Assembly (NCBI GenBank): GCA_026196875.1
Contig: JAPHTP010000078.1
Location: 1-50,375, forward strand
DNA from: Kangiellaceae bacterium
Lineage (GTDB): Bacteria > Pseudomonadota > Gammaproteobacteria > Enterobacterales > Kangiellaceae
DNA: 50,375 nt
Direction of reading: 5' to 3'
Shown: one piece after another, positions 7,290-48,468 of the stretch
Position numbering within the stretch: the first letter of the stretch is position 1
Layout of the letters: every line of letters begins with the position of its first letter
Program-made: the position numbers and the translations under genes
The notes under the pieces: model-generated
What the model saw: the letters and a program-made list of their open reading frames with translations, nothing else
What the model was told of the DNA's origin: nothing
Databases searched by the model: none

Positions 7290-7646
7290 CTATCTCTTAA
7301 TTGGTTTACGTGGGCCCTTACGGGTACGTGCGTTTGTTTTAGTACGCTGTCCGCGGACAGGTAAGCTTCTTCTGTGACGAATGCCACGGAAGCAACCAAG
7401 ATCCATCAAACGTTTGATATTCATTGACACTTCACGACGCAAGTCACCTTCTACGGTGAACTTCGCTACTTCGCCACGAAGTGATTCGATTTCCGCTTCG
7501 CTTAAATCGCGAATTTTGCGGCTTGCTTCAACGCCTGCATTACTACAGATCTGTTGAGCACGAGTTCGGCCAATTCCGTAGATCGATGTCAACGCAATTA
7601 CCGAATGCTTATTAACTGGAATGTTAATACCAGCGATACGGGCCAT
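7290..7646 (-). CDS. rpsM: 30S ribosomal protein S13
   Basis: The 118-residue S13 has [26 protein letters not shown] at the N-terminus and the conserved [23 protein letters not shown] near the C-terminus. It contacts 16S rRNA in the 30S head and the bridges to the 50S. It is the first gene of the alpha operon, and GGGAG lies about 9 bases upstream of ATG 7646. In E. coli this start is the S4-regulated site. Confidence 0.98.
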
Positions 7647-7728
7647 TTAACTAACTCCCAAATTTCAGTTTCAAGTACTTATATCGTGTCAATTTTGAAC
7701 TTTTGCTGTCAAAACGACTAACGCGGTA

Positions 7729-19016: not shown

Positions 19017-20339
19017 TTATTTGAAAACTCCGGTCAGTCGATAGAAGAAAGCCATAAAAAATCCGTATTGATATCTTAGAATCGCGTGGTTGTAGCGATG
19101 ATATTCAGCCTTAGTCAAGCGTTTTGACCCCACCTCTTTTTGCACGATGACATCTTCATACTCAGACTTTCCTAACCTGGCAATAACCGTTTTATGTACC
19201 TTGTTACCGTTTCCATCTTCTGTAAGAAGCACCGAAGGTCTGATCCGTCGTTTTTTACTAGCCTCTATAACGACTCCTTTTTCGCCTGAAGAAAGCTCTA
19301 CTAAACTACCAGGAGGATAAAGCCCGACAGCCTGAATTAGTTCTTCAATCAATTCGCCATCAAATAATGAATCTCTGCACCAATAAAGCCTCGCCAATGA
19401 CTCTCCGACACTTCGCTTCTTCTTTTTAGTTATTGGATTCATGCTCAACTCAAAAGCTTCCGCTAGAGAGGCGATTTGCGCAAGATACGGGATCCCTTTT
19501 TTCATCTTTTGGTGCGGAAACCCGGTTCCATTTAAACGTTCAGTCATGTTTGCGAGTATGGTTAGTACCTTGGGCTCAATTTTTGAGTGACTTAATTTCC
19601 TAATCGCATAATTAGACCAAGCCGCAAAATTTCGATCAATTTCTAACGAATCGCAATTAGCCCAGTCTTTTTTCTTTAAACATATTTTTCCGACTCCTGA
19701 GAGCAATATAGCTTCATTCATTGCCTGCAAACTCGATTTGAGGAGCCCCATGTTTCGTCCTATTAAGGTTGCCCACACTGCCGTTCTTAACGTGTGATCA
19801 TATATTACACTTCCGCAGGAACGTACTTTACTGAGCCAGACTAATGCGTCAGGGTTACCCATCATAGAATCAACTATGGCTTCGCTTATTGACTCCAATT
19901 CGCGAGTATTTTTTAACCTGTTAAGCTCTGGATCTCGGTGTAAACAGCTGATGATTTTGCCTATTCGGTCAAATAGTTTGTTAGCACTCATTAACTCTTT
20001 GCTCAAGGAGCGGCAAGTTTTATAACGTCGAGACGAGAATTTTTGCCAAGGCTTAGGCTCTTTTTTGTCGTCACGAACTATTTTGAGACGGGATCGCTGA
20101 TAAATGTCAGCCAGAAGATTCGGCATTCCCAAAGTTAAACTTCTAGTCTCATCGATTACAAAGTGCTGGCCATATTTAGTCAAGCACTCGATATCAGCGT
20201 GATTTCGAATTAATACACCTTCTAATGGAAAAGGAGTGGCACTCCAAGGAACGGGAAGTTGGCTTACATACATACCAACACACAATTCATTTGCTTCGAC
20301 TCTTCTTGAGTGAATAACTTTTGTTTCTCTAGCTCTCAT
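19017..20339 (-). CDS. DUF3391 plus degenerate HD-GYP-domain protein (copy 1)
   Basis: A 440-residue protein from ATG 20339 (the frame extends to GTG 20366, but this start matches the length of the neighbouring paralogue). A DUF3391 domain is at the N-terminus (VGMYVSQLPVPWSATPFPLEGVL, about 22-75), followed by an HD-GYP-like core. The first histidine survives (YDHTLRTAVWA). The HD pair is SGVGK, the HHE motif is TE within NMTERLNGTGFP, and GYP reads GFP. Most metal ligands of c-di-GMP phosphodiesterases are therefore missing, so hydrolysis is unlikely and a sensing or binding role is more plausible. A KOW/PilZ-like beta tail follows (PGSLVELSSGEKGVVIEAS). It is preceded by a GEMM riboswitch. 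Confidence 0.8.
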   Translation of the reverse strand: MRARETKVIHSRRVEANELCVGMYVSQLPVPWSATPFPLEGVLIRNHADIECLTKYGQHFVIDETRSLTLGMPNLLADIYQRSRLKIVRDDKKEPKPWQKFSSRRYKTCRSLSKELMSANKLFDRIGKIISCLHRDPELNRLKNTRELESISEAIVDSMMGNPDALVWLSKVRSCGSVIYDHTLRTAVWATLIGRNMGLLKSSLQAMNEAILLSGVGKICLKKKDWANCDSLEIDRNFAAWSNYAIRKLSHSKIEPKVLTILANMTERLNGTGFPHQKMKKGIPYLAQIASLAEAFELSMNPITKKKKRSVGESLARLYWCRDSLFDGELIEELIQAVGLYPPGSLVELSSGEKGVVIEASKKRRIRPSVLLTEDGNGNKVHKTVIARLGKSEYEDVIVQKEVGSKRLTKAEYHRYNHAILRYQYGFFMAFFYRLTGVFK

Positions 20340-20561
20340 AAGGATCACATCTATTTTTGTAAGCACTATAAAAGGCTAACTGGTGAAAACTTAGATGCTC
20401 ATCCTGATAAAAATCTATTCCTTTAAAATTCTAATTCTCCACACTAATAGCCGAACTAATATCGAAGGGAAACAAAAGAAAGGAGAAATGGAAGTGACGC
20501 GCGCATACCAGTTCAAAGAAAAAAACTTGTTCTTCAACCCGAGAATGCTGTTTTTAATACC

Positions 20562-20660
20562 ACTTTAGGTAACCCCGCTATCTTAGACTAAATGACTTAG
20601 TCCTTAGACCGGAGGCTTTGCGTCCACTAGCTTTCACTAATGTTTGCCCTTATCAAAACC
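20562..20660 (-). ncRNA. GEMM-I cyclic di-GMP riboswitch 1
   Basis: Read on the minus strand it contains the GEMM core in order: GGGCAAAC, a P2 stem CATTAGT/GCTAGTG capped by a GAAA tetraloop, GGACGCAAAGCCTCCGG, a P3 arm with an inner GACTAA/TTAGTC hairpin, and AGCGGGGTTACC. The guanine before GCAAAC (G20 in Vc2 numbering) and the intercalating adenine (A47) are both present, fitting c-di-GMP rather than cGAMP preference. P1 is weak. About 220 bases separate it from ATG 20339. A U7 run about 40 bases downstream might belong to a terminator, but its stem is poor, so the control mode is unclear. Confidence 0.88.
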
Positions 20661-20826: not shown

Positions 20827-22143
20827 TTAACGTGAAACAATATTTCGAAAAGAAAGTCCTATTTTAGACACTAATCCCTGCTGATAACTAGCAATCAACT
20901 GGTTTATTTGAGCCAGATCTTCTTCATTAATATCTGTTTCGAGTGATTCTTTTTTAACGATGACATCCTTAAAATCAGACTCACCTAAACGTACTATTTT
21001 GTAATTAAACAAGCGGTAACCATCTTCATCATGAGTTACTGCCACAGTGCCTCGGATACGCCTTTCAACGGAATGCTCAACGACTATGCCCCGCGAACCA
21101 TTAGATAGTTCTACATGTGTTCCCGGAGGATAAAGCCCAACAGCACTAATCAGAGCCTCAATCAACTCACCATCAAATAGCATATCCCGATAACAATATA
21201 AGCGCGATAGTGCCTGCCCTACACTCTTACGAGATTTGGACAGCATTGGCCACATGATCAGGTCAAATGTTTCGACTAATGATGCAATTTGCGCTAAATA
21301 AGGGATGGCACGTCCTACTTTTCCACTTGGATATCCGATCCCGTTAACTCGTTCATTCATATTAGCAAGAGTGTTAATGACTCTAGAATCGAGATTACTA
21401 TGGGCTAGCCTTTCTATGGCTAGTTGGGTCCAGCGGGCGTACTCTTCCCCCATCTCAGGCAATTTACAGCCCAGCCAATCTTTTTTCCCCAGGCTCATTT
21501 TACCAACGCCTGATAAAAAGATAGCCTGCACCAACACTTTAAACGCGGACTTTTGCAATCCCATTGAACGCGCCATAAGACTAGCCCATATGCTTGTGCG
21601 GACCAAGTGATTAAAAATTGTTTTGCGAGTCCGCTCAATTTTACACACCCAAACTAAGGCATCAGGGTTATCAGCAATAGATTCAGCAATTGACTCACTC
21701 GTTTGGGTAAGTGCCTGCAAACTCTTAATTGAGCTCAGTTGCGGATCTCTTCTTAGTAGCTCTAAAGATTCATCAACCCTTTTGAGAATGTCGCGGGCGT
21801 TGGCCATTTCTTGAGCGATTGGTTTGTTGACCGTATAACGCTGAGTACAGAACTTTTTCCAAGGGCGAAAACTGCTATTCGACTGTAGATTTTGTTTAAA
21901 GTAATCAGGCTTTTCCGCAATGCTTAGCAGCAAATTCGTCATTCCAACCGATAGGCTCTTTGATTCATCAACATAAACAAATTTAGTGAATCGAGAGAGC
22001 TTAACGATATCATCGTTGTCTTTAACCAACACCCCTTCCAATGGAAAGCTAGTTGCGCTCCAAGGAATATCCAGGCGAGTTACGTACATGCCGACCCTTA
22101 GATCAGCAATGGAAATTTTTCTCGTAACTATCGATTTGGACAT
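20827..22143 (-). CDS. DUF3391 plus degenerate HD-GYP-domain protein (copy 2)
   Basis: A 438-residue paralogue of the downstream gene, aligned along its whole length. DUF3391 is at about 8-66 (LRVGMYVTRLDIPWSATSFPLEGVLV). The HD-GYP-like core keeps His179, has SGVGK (211-215) where HDxGK is expected, and MNERVNGIGYP (262-272) where HHExxxGxGYP is expected. The metal ligands are thus mostly lost while the GYP loop is retained. The C-terminal beta region is PGTHVELSNGSRGIVVEHS. Cytoplasmic, with no membrane segments. The SD is weak, as in copy 1, which fits riboswitch or leader control of translation. The gene, leader and riboswitch appear to have been duplicated together. Confidence 0.8.
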   Translation of the reverse strand: MSKSIVTRKISIADLRVGMYVTRLDIPWSATSFPLEGVLVKDNDDIVKLSRFTKFVYVDESKSLSVGMTNLLLSIAEKPDYFKQNLQSNSSFRPWKKFCTQRYTVNKPIAQEMANARDILKRVDESLELLRRDPQLSSIKSLQALTQTSESIAESIADNPDALVWVCKIERTRKTIFNHLVRTSIWASLMARSMGLQKSAFKVLVQAIFLSGVGKMSLGKKDWLGCKLPEMGEEYARWTQLAIERLAHSNLDSRVINTLANMNERVNGIGYPSGKVGRAIPYLAQIASLVETFDLIMWPMLSKSRKSVGQALSRLYCYRDMLFDGELIEALISAVGLYPPGTHVELSNGSRGIVVEHSVERRIRGTVAVTHDEDGYRLFNYKIVRLGESDFKDVIVKKESLETDINEEDLAQINQLIASYQQGLVSKIGLSFRNIVSR

Positions 22144-22313: not shown

Positions 22314-22438
22314 AGTTTCGGTAACCCCGCTGTCATAGGCAAGTCAATAACCTGACTGTTACTGACTATGATTTAAACCTTTAGACCGGTGGTTTTGCGC
22401 ATACCTACTTTCGTTAGGTATTTGCCATTATCAAAACT
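22314..22438 (-). ncRNA. GEMM-I cyclic di-GMP riboswitch 2
   Basis: On the minus strand a P1 stem AGTTTTG/CGAAACT (22438-22432 with 22320-22314) encloses TGGCAAAT. P2, ATACCT/AGGTAT, carries a GAAA tetraloop, followed by GCGCAAAACCACCGG, an extended P3 arm with a 10-bp AGTCAGTAAC/GTTATTGACT helix, and AGCGGGGTTACC. G20 is kept, but the base equivalent to A47 of Vc2 is G. It lies 170 bases upstream of copy 2. A U5 run about 30 bases downstream, after a GGATCC palindrome, could be part of the expression platform. Confidence 0.83.
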
Positions 22439-36065: not shown

Positions 36066-38924
36066 ATGAGCAATTTTGCCGTCGGCCAGCGCTGGCTAAG
36101 CGAGAACGAAACAGAATTAGGTTTGGGCATTGTACAAGATGTTGATCATCGCCTGGTTACTATGTTTTATCCGGCCGTTGAAGAACAGCGAACTTACGCA
36201 AAATCCAATGCACCGCTTTCGCGCATGGCTTACCAGCCAGGTGAGCAGATAGAGACTTCACATGGCGAACTGCTGACAGTTGAAAGCGTTGAGCCGCTTA
36301 ATGATATTTTGGTTTATATGGCGAAAGATCCATCAAGTGGTGATGTTTTGCCAGTCCCTGAAACCCAGCTCAGCCACCACTTGCAGCTCAATAAGGCGTC
36401 TGATCGGTTATTTTCGGGTCAAATAGATTCTCTACGTTGGTTCGAACTGCGCTATGCAGCGATGAAAGCTAAAGAACAACAACAACGATGTGAAGTTAAT
36501 GGCTTACAAGGACCACGTATCGATTTAATTGGCCATCAACTGTTTATCGCATCAGAAGTCGGTAGCCGGCATGCCCCACGAGTATTGCTTGCTGACGAGG
36601 TGGGCCTCGGTAAAACCATCGAAGCAGGCATGATTATTCATCAGCAGCTACTCAACCACCGCGCCCAGCGCGTCCTGATCGTTGTGCCGCAGCCATTGGT
36701 CAATCAGTGGTTTGTGGAAATGATTAGGCGTTTTAATCTACACTTCAGCATTTTTGATCAAGAACGAATTGACTCGTTAACAAGTCTAGATGATCTCGGT
36801 TTAGATGCAGACGTTGATACTTCCCAAATCGAAATTGAAAATCCCTATCTATCAGAACAGCTCGTTTTGTGTAGTACCGAGTTCCTAGCCGAATGTGACT
36901 TAAATCTAATTAAAGACGGCGAGTGGGAACTACTGGTTGTCGATGAGGCTCACCATCTTGAATGGATGCCAGATAACCCAAGCAAAGAATATTTAAGAGT
37001 GGAAGCGATTTCCCAAGATACTCCGGGATTATTGCTCCTCTCTGCAACGCCGGAACAACTGGGCCAAGAGAGTCATTTCGCTCGTTTACGCTTGCTCGAC
37101 CCGGATCGCTTTCATAGCCTTGAAGCATTTGTCGATGAACAAAAAGCCTATCAACCTGTTGCAGAACTTGTCAGCGAGCTAGCAGATTCTGACGATTGGA
37201 ATACCGAATTAAAAGCCAAAGTTGCAGAACATCTAGATGACGTTGAAATAACAGAATCTAACAAAGAACAAATCCTGGCCGAGTTGCTCGATAGAAACGG
37301 CACCGGGAGAGTACTTTATCGAAATACCAGAAAAAATATCAAAGGATTCCCACAAAGAAAAGTCATCGCTCATCCTGTAGAGAGCTGCGAAAAATATCAT
37401 GACGATGTGGGTGACACTTTAGAAGAAACAATCAGCTTCTTACTCCACCCTGAAACGCAATATGCCGATGAGTCCTGGACTCAATTCGACCCAAGAATAG
37501 ATTGGCTAAAAGATTTTCTCAAATCTAATCGAAACGAGAAAATTCTGATTATTTGTGCGCACAAAGATACCGCAATTGCGCTTGATTTACACTGCCGATT
37601 TAAACTCGGTATCAATTGCTGCACTTTCCATGAAGACATGGATATTATCAGCCGTGATCGAGCCGCGGCCCACTTTGCTGATATGGAGGATGGCGCGCAA
37701 GCCATGTTTTGCTCCGAAATCGGTAGTGAAGGAAGGAATTTTCAATTTAGTCATAAATTAGTTTTAATGGACCTCCCTATTAATCCTGACCTTTTGGAAC
37801 AACGTATTGGTCGATTGGATAGAATTGGGCAAAGCCAGAACATCGAAATTCATATTCCATTTATGCAACAGACAGCGCAAGAAATTATTTTTAATTGGTA
37901 TCATCAAGGAATGAATGCTTTTGAAAAAACCAATGCAGCTGGCGCAGCCATTTTCAAGCAAACTAAAGCAAAATTAATTGATGCTCTAATCGAATACAAA
38001 GATAACAAGCTTCAGGAAGAATTAATTAAACTAACTCAAGATACTGCCAGCGAAGTTAACAGTATGATGGAATCGGGCCGTGATAAATTATTGGAACTAA
38101 GCTCCTTCAATCAACAGCGCGCCGATGAACTTGTCGAATTCGTTGCCGAACGCGATAGCCTTGCCCCCCGCTCATTTATGGAATCTTGCTGGGATCGTTT
38201 TGGGGTTAATCTCGAAGATCATTCAGAAAAAACTTACGTGATCACACCCGGCGATCATATGTATATTGGTTCTTTTCCCGCGCTGCCGGAAGATGGTCTT
38301 ACCGCAACCTATGACCGTCAAACAGCACTTTCTCGTGACGATGTTCATTTTTTGAGTTGGGAACATCCTATGGTCAATGGAGCAATTGACTTAGTACTTT
38401 CTGAAGATAAAGGAAACGCGAGTTTTTGTATCATAAAGAACAAAGGAATCAAAGCAGGTACTATATTGATGGAAGTGCTTTATCACGTTGAGTGTGTTGC
38501 ACCTAAATATTTACAAGCGCAACGCTTTTTACCATTTACTTCGATACGAATATTGGCTGATGTAAACGGCAACAACCTGGCACCAAAAGTGTCGCATGAA
38601 GCGCTAAGCAAACAGTGTCAAAAAGTTCCTAAGACTACCTCTCGACAGGTATTAAAAAGTGAAGAAAAGACTTTAAGAAAAGTACTCAAAAGTGCAGATA
38701 GCAAAGCCGAGATACAAGCAAAAGAAATTTTAGATGGCGTAATTGATACTATGAAAGCCTCGCAGCAAGATGAGCTAAATCGATTGCTTTCACTGCAAAA
38801 GAAAAACCCTAACATTCGTCAGGATGAAATTGAGTTTATCCAGAATCAAACGCAACTTTTAGAAAAGTATCTTGCTGATACGCAATTGCAACTTGAAGCA
38901 GTAAGAGTAATAATTGCAGTTTAG
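36066..38924 (+). CDS. rapA: RNA polymerase-associated ATPase RapA (HepA)
   Basis: The 952-residue protein matches RapA in length and architecture: tandem Tudor/KOW-like N-terminal domains (MSNFAVGQRWLSENETELGLGIVQ...), then the SWI2/SNF2 ATPase. The ATPase has Walker A in DEVGLGKTIEAG, Walker B in VVDEAHHLEW, SATP motif III and motif VI QRIGRLDRIGQ. The long RapA-specific C-terminal region follows. It recycles RNA polymerase from stalled post-termination complexes. The basal transcription role fits its solitary placement. Confidence 0.97.
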   Translation: MSNFAVGQRWLSENETELGLGIVQDVDHRLVTMFYPAVEEQRTYAKSNAPLSRMAYQPGEQIETSHGELLTVESVEPLNDILVYMAKDPSSGDVLPVPETQLSHHLQLNKASDRLFSGQIDSLRWFELRYAAMKAKEQQQRCEVNGLQGPRIDLIGHQLFIASEVGSRHAPRVLLADEVGLGKTIEAGMIIHQQLLNHRAQRVLIVVPQPLVNQWFVEMIRRFNLHFSIFDQERIDSLTSLDDLGLDADVDTSQIEIENPYLSEQLVLCSTEFLAECDLNLIKDGEWELLVVDEAHHLEWMPDNPSKEYLRVEAISQDTPGLLLLSATPEQLGQESHFARLRLLDPDRFHSLEAFVDEQKAYQPVAELVSELADSDDWNTELKAKVAEHLDDVEITESNKEQILAELLDRNGTGRVLYRNTRKNIKGFPQRKVIAHPVESCEKYHDDVGDTLEETISFLLHPETQYADESWTQFDPRIDWLKDFLKSNRNEKILIICAHKDTAIALDLHCRFKLGINCCTFHEDMDIISRDRAAAHFADMEDGAQAMFCSEIGSEGRNFQFSHKLVLMDLPINPDLLEQRIGRLDRIGQSQNIEIHIPFMQQTAQEIIFNWYHQGMNAFEKTNAAGAAIFKQTKAKLIDALIEYKDNKLQEELIKLTQDTASEVNSMMESGRDKLLELSSFNQQRADELVEFVAERDSLAPRSFMESCWDRFGVNLEDHSEKTYVITPGDHMYIGSFPALPEDGLTATYDRQTALSRDDVHFLSWEHPMVNGAIDLVLSEDKGNASFCIIKNKGIKAGTILMEVLYHVECVAPKYLQAQRFLPFTSIRILADVNGNNLAPKVSHEALSKQCQKVPKTTSRQVLKSEEKTLRKVLKSADSKAEIQAKEILDGVIDTMKASQQDELNRLLSLQKKNPNIRQDEIEFIQNQTQLLEKYLADTQLQLEAVRVIIAV

Positions 38925-39506
38925 TTGATCACTTTTGATTTTCTTCTCGCGCTTAATAAAATCCAGGTTGCGTCAGACTACAGTCAATATGTATCTGACG
39001 CACTTGAAACAAAAAAACGAAAAGTAGCTCACCGCCACGAAAACCCGCGTAAACATATCAGTAACTATCTACTAAGCCATCGCTAAATTCATCAGGCACT
39101 CAATAAATTTTCAGACCTTAAAATTTAAGACTAATTAATGGCTAAATTAACTCTGTTTTTCTAGCATATCTTGAATTCCTTCCAGAGATAAAAACGCATT
39201 TAATTTTGATTAATCCAACTCTTTCACCTAATTTAAGATCGCTTATGTTTTACGCAGATTATTCTAGGCAAATTATTTCGGGCCGAATTTTTAACAAGTT
39301 ACCGTCAGCATTTATCAATTGCGAATAAACACTGCTCTGCTTAATTCCATTTCAATTAAGTGAATAACAAAGCTTATAAAAGAAAACTTTGGTAGCGACC
39401 ATTCAAGAAAGCAAAGATCCCCACCTGCTGAGCTCTTACGAAAACTGGTCGTTAATTGGATGTTTCTAAATTAATGGATCTATTTTTTTGAAGAGGGATA
39501 TTGAAA
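38925..39506. other. Intergenic region rapA to oxidase operon
   Basis: This 582-base AT-rich gap has no supported ORF. It contains a strong hairpin at 38969-39002: TGCGTCAGA/TCTGACGCA with an inner TACA/TGTA helix and one bulge, no T tract. It may end rapA transcription. Closer to the oxidase operon, GCGACCA near 39390 and TGGTCGT near 39450 form a spaced inverted repeat that could be regulatory. I see no CueR-type copper operator. Confidence 0.45.
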
Positions 39507-41225
39507 ATGTTCGCCGTCAACCTAAACAACCTTTCGTTCTTATTGCTAATCAGCGCGGCCGTTAGCTCAACGGTCCATGCAGACACTAAAAATTATTACG
39601 ATATTCTTAAGAAAACAGGAAAGAGCCAATTAAAAACGGAGGTGCCAGCAAAGCCCGGTTGCGAATTCCAAACGATTAATATTAAAAAATATGGACTCAA
39701 ACCATTTAAGAACCCCAAAGTTATTCAATCCGATAAAGGGGAGCTTAACACCACCCTTACAGTTAAATATGCAGAGCACAATATTGCCGGTTGTGACACT
39801 CATTTAAGAACTTATAACGGTGAACTTGTTGGCCCGACACTAAAGCTGAAACCAGGCGATACGTTACGTGTAAAACTGCGAAACCGGATGCCGCCGTGCG
39901 ACCCCAAGTTTCCCGAAAGGTGTACTCACGGAAATGGAGAAATGAACAATCCGGGTAATTTTAACGTAACTAACTTACATACTCATGGATTCCATGTTTC
40001 CCCCGCGGGCAATAGTGATAATGTGCTGCTGCAGATTCAGCCAGGAACTGATTTTGATTATGAAATCAAAGTTCCTCCCAACCATCCATCCGGCACTTTC
40101 TGGTATCACGCCCACGTTCATGGTTCAACCGCACTTCAAGTGTCCAGTGGTATGGCTGGCACACTAATTGTCGAGGGTGGTCTCGATGACGCGCCTGGAA
40201 TAAAAGAAATGGAAGAGAAAACTTTTGTCTTCCAACAGATCGCCTATGACTGTCGCGGCGTTATTGAAAGTTATGTTAGTCAGTGTGCCGACGGTATAGG
40301 CGGTTTCGGTCCAGGAGAATGGGAAAAAACCAAACGTCACATTCTCATCAATGGTGATATCACTCCCACTATCACCATGCGACCAGGGGAAATACAGCGC
40401 TGGCGATTCATTCACGCCGGTGTTCGAGAATCGATTATGCTCCGCGTAGAAGACACTCGTGGTTACGCTCGGGAAAAGTTAAACGAAATTGCGGTTGATG
40501 GTCTGGCAACCGGACGACTAGACGCCTGGCCCATAATCGAATTACAACCCGGTTACCGCAGTGACGTACTTTACCGCGCGCCTTCAAAAGAGGGCGAATA
40601 CTGGTTAATGGATACAGAAACCAGCGCCGACCTAGCACTTCACGGAGTAACCGAGCCAGCCAAAAAACTTGCGCGCATCATTGTAGAAGGAAACACTGTT
40701 TCGATGAATATGCCGAAACCGGAAGTGTTAGCAAAATTAAAGGCCATGCAAGATTTCACACCACAAGAAATTGCTAAATTGCCGCCAACCAAAGAGCCAA
40801 TGATGTTTTATTTAGGTTCCACCAAAGACATCCCAGAAAAAGCTTGCGGGGATTTTACCAATACAAATAATGATGACCTGATCTTTACTGTAAATGGCAT
40901 CCCATTTAACAACGATAACATCAGGGAGCTCACCCTAAATCATGCAGAAAAGTGGACCTTGTGCACACGCGGCCTGGCATCTGCTCACCCTTTCCATATC
41001 CATGTTAACCCTTTCCAGTACGAACGAATAGGTCCCGACGGAAAACCTCAAAATGTCTGGAGAGACACCTTACTAGTGCGCAGTCGAAGAGATTTAGAAA
41101 TCTATACTCGGTATGAAGACTATATCGGAGACTTCGTACTGCACTGTCATATCCTCGACCACGAAGACCAGGGCATGATGCAAATTGTAAGAATCAATCC
41201 CGAAGGCACGACTAGTCATCATTAG
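39507..41225 (+). CDS. Exported multicopper oxidase (laccase-like)
   Basis: A 572-residue protein from ATG 39507 (AGAGGGA 8 bases upstream; TTG 39501 is in frame). A signal peptide ends at about Ala25 (STVHA), so it is periplasmic or extracellular. Three cupredoxin domains carry all copper motifs: LHTHGFH (158-163), WYHAHVHG (200-206), HPFHIH (494-499) and HCHILDHEDQGM (546-557), with Cys547 the type 1 ligand and Met557 the likely axial ligand. Such enzymes oxidise phenols, amines or Cu(I) with four-electron O2 reduction. It leads the six-gene operon; the tyrosinase starts 11 bases downstream. The substrate is unknown. Confidence 0.92.
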   Translation: MFAVNLNNLSFLLLISAAVSSTVHADTKNYYDILKKTGKSQLKTEVPAKPGCEFQTINIKKYGLKPFKNPKVIQSDKGELNTTLTVKYAEHNIAGCDTHLRTYNGELVGPTLKLKPGDTLRVKLRNRMPPCDPKFPERCTHGNGEMNNPGNFNVTNLHTHGFHVSPAGNSDNVLLQIQPGTDFDYEIKVPPNHPSGTFWYHAHVHGSTALQVSSGMAGTLIVEGGLDDAPGIKEMEEKTFVFQQIAYDCRGVIESYVSQCADGIGGFGPGEWEKTKRHILINGDITPTITMRPGEIQRWRFIHAGVRESIMLRVEDTRGYAREKLNEIAVDGLATGRLDAWPIIELQPGYRSDVLYRAPSKEGEYWLMDTETSADLALHGVTEPAKKLARIIVEGNTVSMNMPKPEVLAKLKAMQDFTPQEIAKLPPTKEPMMFYLGSTKDIPEKACGDFTNTNNDDLIFTVNGIPFNNDNIRELTLNHAEKWTLCTRGLASAHPFHIHVNPFQYERIGPDGKPQNVWRDTLLVRSRRDLEIYTRYEDYIGDFVLHCHILDHEDQGMMQIVRINPEGTTSHH

Positions 41226-41236
41226 GAGGAAAGCGA

Positions 41237-43252
41237 GTGAGCACAAGTGACAAATTATCGCGTTACCAACAGGTAAAAAAGATCCTGGACAAAACCTACC
41301 TCGAAACGAACCCGCCTAGCTATCAGGGATTGGGACCTTTCTGGCGGAGTCTCTCTCACACCGACTTTTTATCCTTTAGTCTATATGGTGAAAAACTCAT
41401 CGCCGATAAACCTGAAAAAAGTTGCTGTGGCACTCCCCCAAAAACTACTCGTGCGGAAGCATCCGGACTTATCAAGGGATTAAAAGGTTTATTTCCATTT
41501 GATGGAGAGCAGTTTCCTCCTTTGCCGTGGGACTCAACTCGTTTAGAACATGTGGATATTGAATTTATCGAGTCCTGGATCAATGACGACTGCCCCGAAT
41601 TTGATACTAAAGTTGATGGTCAAAGCCGGAAAAAGAGTGACAAAGCCTTACTGACAAACAAAAGCGGCGTGGTAGAAAAAAGCAATATCAACCAATACAA
41701 ACGAGAGATAAAAGAGCCCAAGCAGCGAAAGAATGTTGATCAACTAAACGATGAAGAAATTTGCAAATTGCGTGAGGCTTTTCGTTGGGCAAAAAGTTTG
41801 AATGCCTGGCCGCGAGACAGACGCAGTTTGTATTCGTGGGGTAAATTACATGGAGATGTTTGTGCCCATGGCTTCGAGCAGTTCTTAACCTGGCACCGAA
41901 TGTTCCTTTATGATTTCGAAAAAAACCTCCAGGATTTTGACCCGGATGTCACCCTTCCTTATTGGGACTGGACGACTTCGCTATACAACGAAAACCGAAC
42001 AGACAACGGCAGTATTATCCCTAAAATATTCCGTTGTTTTATCACTGAGGAGGCCATTGAGAAACTGCAAGCCAACTACGGCCTGTCAAAGGCTTTGGCC
42101 GACAAATTAAAAACCGTGATCGATAAAGATTTTAACTCCGGTGTAGAACTATTTGAGGCCGCCAAAATTGAAGGGGAGGAATATCGGCAGAATGCCGCTG
42201 TTATTATCAACATGTTAGAAGAGCTTAACCCGCTTTGGTATAACATGCGATACCCAAATATGTTCTTTGAAAGGGAAGCTAACGGCGATTATAAACGTGA
42301 CGCAAACGGAAAACCGATCCCCGTAGAAAACGGCCTCCGTCAATTTCATCATCACTTCCCAACCGAAGCTGATGTTAACAACTTGCTTTCGCTCAGTTAC
42401 TGGCGCGACTTCGCCGGAGGACCGTCTTACAACCAGGCATTTGGGTTGGTCGACATGGAGCCACACAATACAATCCATATATGGGTTGGTGGCTTTAATC
42501 CTAATTACGACAAAAATAAAGCCGACAATGATAATCCTAAAGATCTGATCGATACAAACCAAGTCGGCGATATGCTGGCTAATTTAACCGCCGGGTTTGA
42601 CCCGATTTTCTGGCCGCATCACGTCAATATTGATCGTATTTTTCATCTCTGGCAACTTACTCATCCAAATCAAACTCCTTATGATCCGGATGCAGCACTA
42701 GTCGGACTTGGCTACAACACCCGTGACGCTTTAAATGTCGAAGCACTGGGTTACGAGTACATCGATGCTTCTGAGTGCTATGTTGTCGATTCCGAAAAAC
42801 ATCAAGGCATAATTTCACTTCAGCCGGAAGCAATCAACACCTTGGCACTGGAAACCAGCCGCCGGGTTGAACTACGCCTGCACCGTATTACACAGCCGGT
42901 AGAATCAGTTTACATTCATGCCTTTATCAATCAGCCGGATCTGACATTCGACACTTCGCTGGACGACAATACCAGATTCGCCGGTCATGCAAGCCTATGG
43001 GGACACGGAGAGTGCGTCGGAGGTCCCGGGCACTGTAAAGTGCCGGAAGATAATGTCGACTATTATGATCGACGTGGCCCAAATCACAATGCCAAACGTA
43101 ATGTCATTCTAGATATTACAGAAGCGCTCAAAGCAGCCGTTGCGCGAGGAGAAACACAAGCGCAAATAACCTTAAGACTTCTCAACATCACTTTAACTGA
43201 CTTAGCTGAGTCACTTCAAATTGAAGCGATATCGATTAACTACGTGAACTAA
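41237..43252 (+). CDS. Tyrosinase-family copper oxidase (GTG start)
   Basis: A 671-residue type 3 copper protein without a signal peptide. The CuA site is His205, His211 and His220 (KLHGDVCAHGFEQFLTWHR). The CuB site is His410 and His414 (MEPHNTIHIWVGG) plus His461/462 in DPIFWPHHVNIDR. Cys209 stands two residues before His211, as in tyrosinases with a Cys-His thioether. About 195 residues precede the CuA site and about 190 follow the CuB site (beta-rich C-domain). It could hydroxylate monophenols or oxidise diphenols to quinones. The GTG start has GGAGG 7 bases upstream, overlapping the oxidase stop region. No separate tyrosinase chaperone gene is seen. Confidence 0.9.
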   Translation: MSTSDKLSRYQQVKKILDKTYLETNPPSYQGLGPFWRSLSHTDFLSFSLYGEKLIADKPEKSCCGTPPKTTRAEASGLIKGLKGLFPFDGEQFPPLPWDSTRLEHVDIEFIESWINDDCPEFDTKVDGQSRKKSDKALLTNKSGVVEKSNINQYKREIKEPKQRKNVDQLNDEEICKLREAFRWAKSLNAWPRDRRSLYSWGKLHGDVCAHGFEQFLTWHRMFLYDFEKNLQDFDPDVTLPYWDWTTSLYNENRTDNGSIIPKIFRCFITEEAIEKLQANYGLSKALADKLKTVIDKDFNSGVELFEAAKIEGEEYRQNAAVIINMLEELNPLWYNMRYPNMFFEREANGDYKRDANGKPIPVENGLRQFHHHFPTEADVNNLLSLSYWRDFAGGPSYNQAFGLVDMEPHNTIHIWVGGFNPNYDKNKADNDNPKDLIDTNQVGDMLANLTAGFDPIFWPHHVNIDRIFHLWQLTHPNQTPYDPDAALVGLGYNTRDALNVEALGYEYIDASECYVVDSEKHQGIISLQPEAINTLALETSRRVELRLHRITQPVESVYIHAFINQPDLTFDTSLDDNTRFAGHASLWGHGECVGGPGHCKVPEDNVDYYDRRGPNHNAKRNVILDITEALKAAVARGETQAQITLRLLNITLTDLAESLQIEAISINYVN

Positions 43253-43267
43253 TTTTGGAGAGAAAAA

Positions 43268-45592
43268 ATGCATTCATCAAAACTGGCGACCTTCAAAATT
43301 CACCCTGCAATCGGTATTGCAAGAGTTGGAGAAAGCAAGGACTCTTTTTATCTGGCCCCAGAGTCTCAAGATGCACTGCCGATTAAGTGCAACCAAAACG
43401 GAACGCCCATCGATCTTGACGGATACCCGGTAAAAGATGGTCAAACAGTGGAGGAGCGACAATTTCGCGATGATAGCGGATATATAAAGCGACAAGCAGC
43501 CCGCTTTAAGATCTATCAATACGATGAGCAAAATCCCGATGGCCGAGAACTTAAGATTGGCGATCACATAGAAGGAGTTACTGGTCATGGACCACTAAAA
43601 CGAATTGAATGGTCTGTTTATCTGGCGAATAAAAAGTCCAGTTGGTATCAATTTAAGCAGCTCCAAGGTGAACATGGCTTCGAGCCCGATCATCCGTTGA
43701 GAAACGCGGATATCACGGACCCAGAAAGCCGCATGAGATTAGTTACGGATCCTGGCGCCTATCTAATTAATTCTACCGGAGAAGCGACAGAGGCGATCGA
43801 TTTTGCACGTCATCAGAATCCCGATTTCACCCAAAATTTCCCACCGGAAGACCTCGCTCCCTTCTCGATTGATTCATTAGGTAGAGCGATGATTAACGAC
43901 GACCAACATCTGGTAGTTTTAGGCGGCGCAGGCCGTTCCGGTAGTTTTAAAAAAGATTTTGGTCATCCGCAAATTAGTCATTATGCTAACAATGACGGCT
44001 GGTTCGATGACGTTGCTGATGGACCAATTTCAGCAATCCTCTATTACTTCGATGAAGTAAACGATGAACTCCGCCAAATTGAAATCAGCGATCCAGCCTG
44101 GCTTATTGTAGGTCCCCCTGCCTATGCGCCGCAAATCCCCAATATGATCACTATGGATGATGTGGTTTACGACTTGTCCATCAAACAGTTCGGCTATAAT
44201 CCTTATCTATATGGCCCCAATAATTTTGATAACCCAGAAGCGGTTGACTATAACGATTCCGACGCGCTACTGCGCTGGCGCCAAGCTAAAAAGAAATTCA
44301 ATCCCGACTATCTCCCGTACTTTCAATCTGAAATTCTCTCGATCTTAATACGCCCTTTTATGTATCAGTGGGTAACCGACTTTTTACAAATTTCAAATGA
44401 TGCCCATCAGGTTGGTAAACGCGGGGACTTTGATTTAAGCAAAATTTCCAAGCCGCCAAAATGGATCAACATAACTGAAAAGTCAAAACAGCTGGAAGAA
44501 GTCGAAGCGTATCTGCGTGACGCAAAAGAAAAAGATTTTCAGTTGAACGCCAAAGAGCAATCAATAACGCCGGATGCAGTTCAGCAACTGGAGCAAGAGC
44601 TGTCTGCATTAAACCATGCCCGCCATTCCGGCAAGCACTTACTCAAGGAAGAAAATGGTAATACTTTTATCATGTATGATCCTTATCGCAACGAACGTGC
44701 TTTTATTTATGAATCTTTACGCCAGGACGGCGAGGAAAATATACTTCGCAACCACCGCTCCGATCCGAAAAATTTGATATACGGGCGCAGCCTGATGCCC
44801 GCGCTTTGTGGCGACAATCCAATTAGTAACACTTTACCAAGAAAATTCCTGCGTTTAACCGATACTCAACTGTTTATCTTGCATCAGTGGGCACTCGGGA
44901 GATTTATCAATGAGGATGAAGAAAAGATCAACTCGGAAAAATTGGAACGCCCCCTATTGCCAAAAGGCGACGGAGTTAAACTTGACCGAGGCGTATTAGC
45001 TAACTTGACAGGTGGCGCTTTTTGCCCTGGTGCTGAAGCGGGTTGGATCATGCGTAACCCGGGGATCTATGCCAAACCCTATCGCATTTTTGGTAATCGA
45101 AATTACTTTCCGATCGGCACAGGACGTTTGCCAGGTCGAGCTCCGTTCCAGCCACCGGCACTAACTTTAAAAGGCGATATATCAGGAGGTTTAGAACCCG
45201 GCGACATCACAAAATTTTCAGCGCTTCCATGGCAAGCCGACTTCAACGAATGCTCGACTCAAAACATAAATGTCAGTTACTCCTCCTGGAACGTGACCTA
45301 CGGAAATACCACCAATAATACTACCAGTAAAAATGATGAAATATCCGAAACGCTTTGGTGGCCTGCTTATCGGCCTATGCAGGTTTATCAAAAAAATAGT
45401 GACGGAAAGGTCCAGCAACTCAATTGGTCCCGAGGGATCCCTGCGACAAACGCTGGTGATTTGAAAATGGTTAGCGCCTGGCGCGATTTGGGTTTTGTTC
45501 TTGGGGAAATCCCCACACAAGATCAAGAGCCCTACGAGCTCAGTTATTTTGAAGTGGAAAGAAAAATACTTTCGGATAATTCAGACGATTGA
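43268..45592 (+). CDS. LodA-like cysteine tryptophylquinone oxidase
   Basis: The 774-residue protein starts IHPAIGIARVGESKDSFYLAPE, the LodA-family opening, and is homologous along its length to L-lysine epsilon-oxidase/glycine oxidase (LodA/GoxA). These enzymes deaminate amino acids to aldehydes or ketoacids with H2O2, using a quinone made from Cys and Trp. Candidate cofactor residues are Cys586 (GGAFCPGAEAGW) and Trp655 (LPWQADFNEC), 69 apart; in LodA the pair (516/581) is 65 apart. There is no signal peptide. The ATG has GGAGAG upstream, 15 bases after the tyrosinase gene. The next gene encodes the LodB-like flavoprotein required to form the cofactor. The amine substrate is unknown. Confidence 0.88.
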   Translation: MHSSKLATFKIHPAIGIARVGESKDSFYLAPESQDALPIKCNQNGTPIDLDGYPVKDGQTVEERQFRDDSGYIKRQAARFKIYQYDEQNPDGRELKIGDHIEGVTGHGPLKRIEWSVYLANKKSSWYQFKQLQGEHGFEPDHPLRNADITDPESRMRLVTDPGAYLINSTGEATEAIDFARHQNPDFTQNFPPEDLAPFSIDSLGRAMINDDQHLVVLGGAGRSGSFKKDFGHPQISHYANNDGWFDDVADGPISAILYYFDEVNDELRQIEISDPAWLIVGPPAYAPQIPNMITMDDVVYDLSIKQFGYNPYLYGPNNFDNPEAVDYNDSDALLRWRQAKKKFNPDYLPYFQSEILSILIRPFMYQWVTDFLQISNDAHQVGKRGDFDLSKISKPPKWINITEKSKQLEEVEAYLRDAKEKDFQLNAKEQSITPDAVQQLEQELSALNHARHSGKHLLKEENGNTFIMYDPYRNERAFIYESLRQDGEENILRNHRSDPKNLIYGRSLMPALCGDNPISNTLPRKFLRLTDTQLFILHQWALGRFINEDEEKINSEKLERPLLPKGDGVKLDRGVLANLTGGAFCPGAEAGWIMRNPGIYAKPYRIFGNRNYFPIGTGRLPGRAPFQPPALTLKGDISGGLEPGDITKFSALPWQADFNECSTQNINVSYSSWNVTYGNTTNNTTSKNDEISETLWWPAYRPMQVYQKNSDGKVQQLNWSRGIPATNAGDLKMVSAWRDLGFVLGEIPTQDQEPYELSYFEVERKILSDNSDD

Positions 45593-47085
45593 AACATACC
45601 TCAAAACATCACTATGACGTATGTATTATTGGCGGTGGACCGGCAGGACTAGCCACCGCATTAATGCTACGCCAGCACAACAAAGCACTCACAATCGCGG
45701 TTGTCGAAAAGAGTAATTACAACGATCATCGTGTAGGCGAGTCGGTTGCGCCAGGACTGGAAGCCGTATTAAAAGCCCTGGGGGCGGAAGAATTACTTAA
45801 TGCCAACAAACATCAAATCAGCGCTGGCGTTATTAGTTACTGGGGGACAGTTCACCCGCAATATCAAGACTATCTGCTCTACCCAAGAGGTAAAGGCTGG
45901 CACCTAAATCGAACGCGTTTTGACGCTGATCTTGCAGCCCTTTGCGTTACTAATGACATCGATGTTTATTGTGGTTATCGTTTTCAAAACTCACATAGTA
46001 ACCAGGGCGAAAGACGGTTATTTTTTAACTCTACGAATGATACGGCCGAATTTGTGCTCGGGGAAAAAGCGCGAACAAAGCAACTGGAACTAACCACAAA
46101 ATTTACCATTGATGCTAGCGGCAGAGCCGCAAAATTTACTTTGCAGCAAGATAGCCGCACTCGACATCTGGATTCGATGCTCGCTATTTATGGTATTTTC
46201 GACGACGAGCCTAGCCCAATACCATACTCAACAATCCTACCAATTGAGAATGGTTGGTGGTATAGCGCTCCGCTTCCAGAAGACAAAAAAATTATTGCCT
46301 TAATGACTGACCGGGATTTGGCTAAAGAACATCAACTGACCAATCAGGCTCACTGGTTCGATTTACTGCAAAAAAGTCCACAGGTTTCACTTTTCAAACA
46401 AAGTCTTAACTCAGCTGATGGACTGCAGATCTGGCCCGCCTATTCATTATTTCGAGACAAAATTATCGGTCAAGACTGGCTTTCCGTCGGCGATACTGCG
46501 ATGTGTTTTGACCCGCTATCATCGCAAGGGATTTTAAAAAGTATGTTGCACGGTTGTTATGCCGCTCATGCAGTACATGATTACTTTTTAGCGAAAAACG
46601 ATCCTGACAAGGCGATTAGCGCTTTAAAAAAATACAACTTGAGTTGCGGCGCGGCCTTTAACAGCTATTATTCAACCTGGTGCGAATTTTATCGGAGTGA
46701 AAGACGTTGGCCAGAAAGTAGCTTCTGGAAAAGACGCTACAATCCACTGGTGCAACTTTCCCCCTATGACACATTACTTGTCAATTCAGATAGACAGAGT
46801 GTCACAACGCCTTTTTGTGATAAAAAGCTGATTCAGCAGTTACTTTCAACATGCTATTCAGAGAAACAAGTGTGGCGCATCGTTAATAAACTTAAGAGCC
46901 TCTGGAATCAAGCTGAGCGCTTTGAACTATCTGGGAATTCTGAACTACCCGAACATTTTAAAATACCTGACGAACTAATTATCAACCAACTCCAAGCATT
47001 AGTCAGCAATGGTATGTTAACTCAGGTGGCAGATAGTTCTGATCGACAAGAAAACTCTAACTCTCAAATTTCAAGCCATGTCTAA
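45589..47085 (+). CDS. LodB-like FAD-dependent flavoprotein (TTG start)
   Basis: The 498-residue flavoprotein is of the tryptophan-halogenase/monooxygenase type. It has an FAD GxGxxG motif (VCIIGGGPAGLATAL, 11-25), RVGESVAPGLEAVL (48-61) and the GDTAMCFDPLSSQGI second FAD motif. LodB proteins post-translationally install the CTQ cofactor in their LodA partner, so LodA modification is the first expectation. Initiation is at TTG 45589, which overlaps the lodA-like stop as TTGA. No in-frame ATG precedes the FAD motif, and the SD is weak, indicating translational coupling. A role as true halogenase is less likely, because the lysine/Trp motifs of halogenases were not found. Confidence 0.86.
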   Translation: MKHTSKHHYDVCIIGGGPAGLATALMLRQHNKALTIAVVEKSNYNDHRVGESVAPGLEAVLKALGAEELLNANKHQISAGVISYWGTVHPQYQDYLLYPRGKGWHLNRTRFDADLAALCVTNDIDVYCGYRFQNSHSNQGERRLFFNSTNDTAEFVLGEKARTKQLELTTKFTIDASGRAAKFTLQQDSRTRHLDSMLAIYGIFDDEPSPIPYSTILPIENGWWYSAPLPEDKKIIALMTDRDLAKEHQLTNQAHWFDLLQKSPQVSLFKQSLNSADGLQIWPAYSLFRDKIIGQDWLSVGDTAMCFDPLSSQGILKSMLHGCYAAHAVHDYFLAKNDPDKAISALKKYNLSCGAAFNSYYSTWCEFYRSERRWPESSFWKRRYNPLVQLSPYDTLLVNSDRQSVTTPFCDKKLIQQLLSTCYSEKQVWRIVNKLKSLWNQAERFELSGNSELPEHFKIPDELIINQLQALVSNGMLTQVADSSDRQENSNSQISSHV

Positions 47086-47749
47086 CTTGATGGTGTCTCT
47101 TCAGACAAAACCTGTGCCTTCAATTCGTTCGGGAATGGTTTTCTTACTAATACTCTTACCATTAATCATTCAGTGTTGGCTTCTCAAGTCTTACTTTAGT
47201 ATCAATATTTTCCAAATCCTATTTTACTATACGCCTTTAGCTCTTTTATTAATCGCTGCTTCCCGATACTTGTTATCCTACAAACTCGTCTGCGCGCTAA
47301 TTCTTGGTGTAACTTTCGGCGGAGCTGGAATGTTAATAGGAGAAATTCTTGACGCTAATAGTTTAGAATCGTTAAAGCCTATTCCTCACCTTGAATCCGA
47401 TATTGCCAACACACACTCTAACCATTCAGTCATTAATCACTCACATAGTGCTTTTAGTCTTGCAACACTCCTTATGATAGTTGGCTGCTACTTTCCCTGT
47501 GTCACAGTATCTCTAGTTTTTCATCGAATAAAAGCTTCGCTCTTGCTATTTCTTTCTCACGCGCTTCCCATTCCTTTTATGGTTATATCAAGTGCGCATC
47601 TTAAACTTTCAACAACAGCATCAGCCTCAGCATTATCTAGTCATCTACATATGCTATTAACCATGAGTATAGGAATTTTAGTCGGTGCAATTGTGCTCAA
47701 TATTTTTGCCGCAAGATTAACGAAGCGCTTGCTATTAAATAGCCAATAA
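47078..47749 (+). CDS. Polytopic membrane protein in the oxidase operon
   Basis: This 223-residue protein is not recognised. About six membrane helices (roughly 18-36, 43-62, 68-88, 125-148, 152-170, 188-210) are visible. A polar histidine-rich stretch lies between helices 3 and 4 (THSNHSVINHSHS, about 111-123), which could bind copper. It overlaps the LodB-like gene by 8 bases, so it is clearly part of the unit. Export, copper supply or integration of the product are all possible; nothing in the sequence decides between them. Some LodAB loci are known to carry extra genes, but I cannot place this family. Confidence 0.7.
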   Translation: MSNLMVSLQTKPVPSIRSGMVFLLILLPLIIQCWLLKSYFSINIFQILFYYTPLALLLIAASRYLLSYKLVCALILGVTFGGAGMLIGEILDANSLESLKPIPHLESDIANTHSNHSVINHSHSAFSLATLLMIVGCYFPCVTVSLVFHRIKASLLLFLSHALPIPFMVISSAHLKLSTTASASALSSHLHMLLTMSIGILVGAIVLNIFAARLTKRLLLNSQ

Positions 47750-47784
47750 AAATGAATTGATGGAAACACAATAAAGGTAAAAAT

Positions 47785-48468
47785 ATGACGACTAACAGCG
47801 ATTCGAAATACAATATTGTTATCCCCGTCTATGATGGCGTCGATTTAATGGATGTCACCGCGCCCTACGAAGTTTTCTCCTGGTTAAAGTCAAAATGTCT
47901 AAAATCAAAAGACAGGGAACAAGAGTTCAACGTAATTATTACTGCAGAACAGAACAAGACAATAATCAGTCGTGATAATTTTAAAATGCTCCCTGACATG
48001 GATTTTGATGAGTTTAATCGTAATGAGTTGTTTAGCAATCTCATATGGATTCCAGGCGGAAGTCCGGAAGCGCTGATTAAAATGCAAAACAATCATCAAT
48101 ATATGGAATTTATTAAGCGCCAAAGCGCAACAGCAGAATATGTCACTTCAGTTTGCGAAGGCGCTTTGCTATTAGCTTATGCAGGATTGTTGGACGGATA
48201 TACTGTTACAACGCACTGGGCATTTATTCCGTGCTTGCAGGAATACCCCGAGATAAAAGTCGCAGATGGTTATCCAAGATATGTTCAAGACAGAAATCGA
48301 ATAACCGGCGGTGGAATTTCTTCAGGGCTTGATGAGTCTATAGCGATTGTTAAGCTGCTTGTGGGTGAAGCGATTGCGGAAGAAATACAATTGAGTATGC
48401 AATATTTTCCTGATCCGCCTGTTCAGGCAAGCATACCTAAAGTAGTAAAAGGTTGTCCATTGGATTAA
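47785..48468 (+). CDS. DJ-1/PfpI-superfamily protein, isonitrile hydratase-like
   Basis: The 227-residue protein has the class I glutamine-amidotransferase-like fold. VYDGVDLMDVTAPYEVF (15-31) is the N-terminal isonitrile-hydratase-like motif. Nucleophile Cys124 lies in VCEGALLLAYAGLL and His144 in TTHW, with a YFPDPP ending typical of the cyclohexyl-isocyanide hydratase group. That enzyme has Cys-Thr at the elbow; here the threonine is Glu125, so the reaction may differ. No AraC HTH is attached. AAAGGT sits about 9 bases before the ATG, 35 bases after the membrane gene. It is the last gene of the operon. A detoxifying role for carbonyl, isonitrile or quinone products is an inference. Confidence 0.82.
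   Translation: MTTNSDSKYNIVIPVYDGVDLMDVTAPYEVFSWLKSKCLKSKDREQEFNVIITAEQNKTIISRDNFKMLPDMDFDEFNRNELFSNLIWIPGGSPEALIKMQNNHQYMEFIKRQSATAEYVTSVCEGALLLAYAGLLDGYTVTTHWAFIPCLQEYPEIKVADGYPRYVQDRNRITGGGISSGLDESIAIVKLLVGEAIAEEIQLSMQYFPDPPVQASIPKVVKGCPLD

Follow-up and report, generated by a model that had tools for sequence, protein, structure and literature searches.

A contig from a Kangiellaceae bacterium (JAPHTP010000078.1; the whole stretch of 50,375 nucleotides is hereafter called the window) carries a multicopper oxidase (MCO), a tyrosinase, a LodA/LodB pair, a membrane protein and a DJ-1-like protein in consecutive genes. An earlier note, made from the sequence alone, had proposed that these genes form one oxidative pathway in which three oxidases act on one compound or its polymer. 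This raises the questions of which of the six genes belong together in other bacteria, and what function could join them.

Gene content and catalytic residues

The locus consisted of six plus-strand open reading frames separated by gaps of 11 and 15 bases, overlaps of 4 and 8 bases and a gap of 35 bases, all of which agreed with the arrangement given in the earlier note (Table 1). Pfam and NCBIfam backed five of the six families, the exception being the membrane protein. The upstream neighbour, rapA, ended 576 bases before the TTG start of the MCO gene, and the next open reading frames 3' of the DJ-1 gene were on the minus strand. The earlier note had regarded promoters or terminators splitting the locus as evidence against it; our scan predicted nothing that splits the operon, and no plus-strand terminator-like site was found in its junctions. 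These scans were set aside as uninformative, their counts being near chance (23 promoter-like sites versus 19.9 in shuffled sequences, s.d. 5.0; 13 terminator-like sites versus 9.4, s.d. 3.4).

Table 1 Coordinates of the six-gene operon and of other features named in the text. Positions refer to the window unless a locus is given.
Feature	Position	Strand	Family or remark
Multicopper oxidase (laccase/CueO-like)	39507 (ATG) or 39501 (TTG)-41225	+	PF07732, PF00394, PF07731
Long tyrosinase	41237-43252 (GTG)	+	PF00264
LodA-like CTQ amine/amino-acid oxidase	43268-45592	+	PF17990, PF18417
LodB-like flavoprotein, predicted LodA maturase	45589-47085	+	NF038171 below cut-off
C-terminal extension of LodB	46740-47082		
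Orphan multi-span membrane protein, 223 residues	47078-47749	+	no family
DJ-1/PfpI protein, isonitrile-hydratase-like	47785-48468	+	PF01965
rapA	36066-38924		upstream neighbour
Alpha operon ribosome-binding site	7614-7702	-	in ribosomal protein operon
DUF3391/HD_5 gene	19017-20366		HD-GYP-like
c-di-GMP-I riboswitch	20565-20658	-	5' of a DUF3391/HD_5 gene
DUF3391/HD_5 gene	20827-22143		HD-GYP-like
c-di-GMP-I riboswitch	22317-22436	-	5' of a DUF3391/HD_5 gene
Stand-alone MCO	L177:8889-10580		genome G1584
Single-CxxCH lipoprotein	L127:5631-7214		directly 3' of lodB
Radical SAM gene	L174:17057-18439		Mesorhizobium cluster
Radical SAM gene	L186:13034-14416		Mesorhizobium cluster
Nif11-like precursor with radical SAM epimerase	L175:4692-6734		Mesorhizobium cluster

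The motifs described as intact in the earlier note were indeed retained, both in the copper ligands and in the predicted CTQ Cys and Trp of the LodA-like protein. In the MCO, all four copper motifs were present (HTHG, WYHAH, HPFHIH and HCHILDHEDQGM); its best solved relatives were laccases, such as 6wcn and Thermus 2xu9, and an apparent Sec signal peptide was recognized by eye. The tyrosinase scored 122.5 bits against PF00264 (cut-off 22.6) and comprised an orphan N-terminal domain (residues ~1-160), the type-3 copper core and a C-terminal domain with a GGPGHC motif. Its copper-binding His205, His211, His220, His410, His414 and His462 were identical in 13 of 13 aligned sequences, the window's included, as were Cys209 of the CxH motif and Asn411, which follows the first CuB histidine. 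The same held outside the core for Cys63, Cys64, Cys119, Cys593, Cys600 and His599. Neither flanking part was assigned by Pfam, the N-terminal one having no match and the C-terminal one none that reached its cut-off. Hemocyanins, multi-domain chains over which scores add up, and tyrosinases were the best solved matches. An AlphaFold model from an alignment of four sequences had a mean pLDDT of 46.3 and was not used for a fold search.

The LodA-like protein aligned to 2ymw and 3weu, placing Cys662 and Trp698 at the positions of C516 and W581, the CTQ residues of LodA (PMC4417212), although the part containing the Trp scored weakly. Both residues, together with Asp658, were kept in all 10 sequences reaching them, and the WWP motif was kept in those reaching it. 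Since the lysine 6-oxidase model NF038172 gave 306 bits and its curated cut-off of 600 was not reached, the protein is classed by profile as LodA-like and not as LodA proper. The adjoining LodB, whose gene overlaps lodA by 4 bases directly downstream, likewise gave 236 bits against the curated cut-off of 400 for NF038171. It matched the peptidyl-tryptophan dihydroxylase QhpG (7ctq, E 3.2e-10) and, more strongly, flavin halogenases. Its C-terminal extension of ~115 residues had no counterpart in the 11 other LodB sequences and gave nothing over the Pfam cut-off.

The DJ-1 protein (PF01965, 64.9 bits) had the isonitrile hydratase InhA (3non, E 1.7e-25) among its closest solved structures. The catalytic residues of InhA are Asp, Cys and Thr. 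The nucleophile Cys is common to both proteins and likely corresponds to Cys124, but it is followed by Glu125 where InhA has Thr, and Asp23 fell in a stretch that aligned to InhA without a significant score.

A conserved and mobile linkage of tyrosinase and LodA

To place the operon among its relatives, we compared stretches around LodA matches and full-length tyrosinases, together with four plasmid loci. Thirteen loci continued past a long tyrosinase (the window, L002, L003, L081-L084, L115, L127, L174-L176 and L186), sampled by their tyrosinase or by their LodA, with L115 and L127 entering through LodA. LodA followed the tyrosinase on the same strand in all 13, although its gene was split in L174 and, in L175, interrupted by an insertion sequence; L001 lacks LodA because its contig ends inside the tyrosinase. 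None of the 29 other LodA loci, from 24 genomes, had a match to the tyrosinase, MCO, small gene (described below) or DJ-1 protein (phmmer, E up to 1e-3; at least 4 kb on both sides in 21 loci and at least 2 kb in 24). With LodA following every one of the 13 long tyrosinases, and a linked tyrosinase at none of the 29 other LodA loci, the pairing is not due to chance.

The co-occurrence of all six families suggested by the earlier note was confirmed for its core only. Tyrosinase, LodA and LodB formed a recurring set, and an MCO was present in 11 of the 13 loci, on the opposite strand in L082 and absent from the stretches examined around L003 and L127. DJ-1 proteins were found in five, one of them from another subfamily, and the membrane protein in the window alone. 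Among same-genus genomes, G1584 carries a stand-alone MCO that resembles the window's and adjoins a single-CxxCH lipoprotein. Another single-CxxCH lipoprotein gene lies next to lodB in L127, from the phylum of L002's genome; Pfam assigned it to no family at E up to 0.01, and kinship between the two lipoproteins was not detectable.

A combination of LodA, tyrosinase and multicopper oxidase genes has been in print since 2015 as the LodA group ID operons of Campillo-Brocal and colleagues (PMC4417212) and is not new. Group ID operons such as that of Bradyrhizobium japonicum USDA6 resemble the window in having LodA-like, LodB-like, tyrosinase and MCO genes in one operon. The window operon is of the group ID kind, a placement made by gene content, with a tree built from sequences other than those the paper names as group ID. 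It differs in its orphan membrane protein, its DJ-1 protein, its LodB extension and the lack of a small gene, the last as in Saccharophagus degradans; the small gene is described as typical of the group and not as defining it (PMC4417212). That paper reports no activity for group ID, and lysine oxidase activity was not detected in Saccharophagus cultures.

LodA-family matches occurred in 8 of 303 genomes of the window's class, 11 of 337 of the class of G251, 7 of 247 of the phylum of L002's genome and 2 of 129 of the phylum of L003's genome. Full-length long tyrosinases were found in one of 148 genomes of the order (the window's own, which has one tyrosinase and one LodA), in 3 of 398 genomes of the phylum, and, within the genus of G251, in 3 of 117 genomes, the centre genomes being counted. 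A phylogenetic tree united the 10 tyrosinase-linked LodA sequences in one clade (support 100/99), with 27 others outside it. This clade spans at least three phyla, and some of its members lie on plasmids. The sequence nearest to the window's LodA was that of L002, a Bacteroidia MAG (57% identity; pair support 100/99). The tree omitted the short sequences of L134 and L141, the split or cut ones of L174 and L175, and the duplicates L146-L148; L186 was in no tree. It carried warnings of long branches (L145, L133 and L139) and of unusual letter make-up (the window, L002, L127, L133 and L145), so the pairing of the window with L002 could partly reflect composition. The mixture of phyla in one clade, together with the plasmid copies, points to transfer. 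Tyrosinase and LodA distances were correlated over 10 loci (rho 0.85, L001, L174 and L175 left out; kinship and co-transfer uncontrolled), more closely than those of LodA and its true LodB partners (rho 0.57).

In 40 relatives, the seven candidates scored per genome included none that matched the part spanning tyrosinase and LodA at nucleotide level; protein-level searching within the genus covered the membrane gene. The genes downstream of rapA in six same-genus genomes (L178-L182 and L184, with 2 kb only in L182) differed from those of the window, where this stretch runs from position 38925 onward. YD-repeat-like proteins were seen by eye in two of the six, and the stretch after rapA looks as if it were a variable insertion site.

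Kinship with a melanin cluster and proposed copper partners

Of the 12 loci having both lodA and lodB, 10 had a small gene between the two, the window and L082 being the exceptions. Its product had no Pfam family, and an HMM built from nine tyrosinase-LodA loci had no match in the window. An AlphaFold model of the L002 and L003 proteins (alignment of two) reached a mean pLDDT of only 41.0 and was not used for a fold search. The same HMM detected, at 186.7 bits, a hypothetical protein on plasmid pRmeGR4b of Sinorhizobium meliloti GR4, which was 40-59% identical to the small protein in all nine comparisons. This protein is encoded between the MCO gene mcoA and the tyrosinase gene mepA, ending 66 bases before the latter with the stop codon included (three records, by eye), and of 107 plasmid records matched by it, 100 were from Sinorhizobium or Rhizobium. 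The GR4 MCO was 47-52% identical to the MCOs of L115 and L174-L176 and 35% to that of the window. MepA was only 23% identical to the window tyrosinase over 326 residues; of the parts compared, the tyrosinase is thus the one that differs. Single mutants of mcoA or mepA produce less copper-induced melanin and the double mutant none, and their deletion modestly raised sensitivity to Myxococcus predation (PMC7010606). As in the window, the MCO and tyrosinase genes of GR4 are neighbours; unlike the window, the cluster has no LodA or LodB, a shorter tyrosinase and the additional hypothetical protein. By sequence, then, the operon is related through its group ID relatives to a module with a tested melanin function. 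At 23% identity to MepA, a melanin product is not certain for the window.

The membrane protein is multi-span with a His-rich loop, as judged by eye. It matched nothing in Pfam or NCBIfam and had no match in 148 other genomes. PpoB2, which passes copper to the tyrosinase in Marinomonas mediterranea (PMC2855505), was considered for it and rejected, since its family (PF09948) did not match the protein and was found nowhere in the window's whole genome. The membrane gene adjoins the DJ-1 gene, in a place held elsewhere by PpoB2 or by a weakly MerC-like protein. PpoB2-family genes were located near the clusters L115 and L082, beside a second tyrosinase in the latter, and they adjoined the window's DJ-1 subfamily in L176 and L185, two rhizobial plasmids of which one lacks LodA. 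In R. ruizarguesonis, the plasmid-borne operon was flanked by PpoB2 (in two pieces) and DJ-1. Plasmid pRL9b4 of R. leguminosarum, which was not one of the 34 plasmids that gave a match to LodA, bears a tyrosinase remnant, PpoB2 (DUF2182), a DJ-1 protein and a small-protein homologue together; an MCO and another tyrosinase lie on the opposite strand. Its DJ-1 protein belongs to the same subfamily and was the best plasmid match (45% identity). A DJ-1 tree grouped the window with the cluster-linked L002, L083 and L176 (support only 83/94), which is a hint only, as only one of 10 inner branches was starred, long branches met and only eight outside sequences were included. Because this DJ-1 subfamily adjoins PpoB2 in two rhizobial plasmids, one of them LodA-free, both the orphan membrane protein of the window and its DJ-1 protein probably serve the copper and tyrosinase side by analogy. 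The membrane protein would be a predicted copper-delivery partner by its gene place, and not by its sequence.

The small protein, the DJ-1 protein and the membrane copper partner thus go with the tyrosinase and MCO, leaving LodAB as the other half of the operon; since neither the small protein nor PpoB2 is present in the window, two of these links apply to it by analogy. The putative associations of the small protein with the melanin cluster and of the DJ-1 subfamily with PpoB2 appear to be new here, no earlier report having been found in the open-licence literature, though others may report them. Together with the predicted part of the membrane gene in copper delivery, they provide one half of the group ID operon with a concrete, testable function that is set apart from the LodAB half.

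Candidate functions of the operon

The reading we consider probable is that a copper-fed, phenol-oxidising module has been combined with a LodAB pair that oxidises an amine and makes peroxide. The membrane protein, perhaps with help from the DJ-1 protein, would bring copper to the tyrosinase, which together with the MCO would convert a phenol to quinone and polymer. LodB would complete the CTQ of LodA, which may then act on an amine or amino acid by deamination, yielding aldehyde, ammonia and H2O2, and the products of both halves might react together or act jointly as a defence. The single oxidative pathway of the earlier note is supported in part, namely as far as the operon is one conserved unit; the membrane and DJ-1 proteins are better read as copper and tyrosinase partners. 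Mutants of the GR4 cluster (PMC7010606) lend support to the melanin-like product, while a compound common to all three oxidases, which we infer from their linkage, is the weak step of the modular reading.

The fixed order of the two genes may also be explained by the maturation of LodA. Its first Trp hydroxylation appears to depend on copper ions (PMC7876137), which allows the order to be read as copper-assisted maturation, in which either the copper supply of the operon or the tyrosinase itself would perform this step before LodB finishes the CTQ. LodA is directly preceded by the tyrosinase in every one of the 13 loci while the MCO, small gene and DJ-1 gene move or drop out, and the distances of these two proteins correlate most closely, as such a role would predict. 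However, the hydroxylation is called autocatalytic in the same source (PMC7876137), the 29 other LodA loci do without a linked tyrosinase, two genomes with tyrosinase-linked LodA (G764 and G620) also carry an unlinked one, and the MCO, small protein and tyrosinase cluster without LodA as well. LodA of group IA is reportedly produced together with LodB in a heterologous host, which also counts against this explanation, and we consider it unlikely. Its stronger form, in which the long tyrosinase is a dedicated CTQ builder and a tyrosinase-LodB relay replaces the autocatalytic step in the tyrosinase-linked clade, is very unlikely; if true, a dinuclear-copper enzyme acting as quinoprotein maturase would represent a novel mode of cofactor assembly. 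A possible contribution of copper enzymes to the quinone of LodA becomes directly testable.

A shared copper regulon, in which enzymes with unrelated substrates are grouped by their copper need or response, would fit the recurrence of membrane proteins with copper ties near the clusters. M. mediterranea has the same kinds of enzymes (PpoA, PpoB1-PpoB2 and LodAB) at separate loci, and its tyrosinase has a membrane copper partner, of a family not found in the window's genome (PMC2855505). These had been described in the earlier note as studied separately, whereas co-regulation of the unlinked tyrosinase, MCO and LodA is described in PMC4417212. Yet a fixed tyrosinase-LodA order in three phyla exceeds what co-regulation needs, and we give grouping by copper regulation little chance. 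Slimmer still is the prospect of peptide or protein cross-linking or RiPP tailoring, with the tyrosinase making DOPA and LodA allysine on one polypeptide. In line with it, radical SAM genes lie near the Mesorhizobium clusters L174 and L186, and L175 has a radical SAM epimerase together with a Nif11-like precursor, but the LodA gene of L175 is interrupted by an insertion sequence, and no such genes were seen by eye among open reading frames of at least 80 residues in the window, L002, L003, L081-L084, L115 and L127.

Elsewhere in the window, an ordinary alpha operon ribosome-binding site was found. Two minus-strand c-di-GMP-I riboswitches each lie 5' of one of two paralogous HD-GYP-like genes, indicating possible c-di-GMP-sensing control of likely c-di-GMP-degrading genes.
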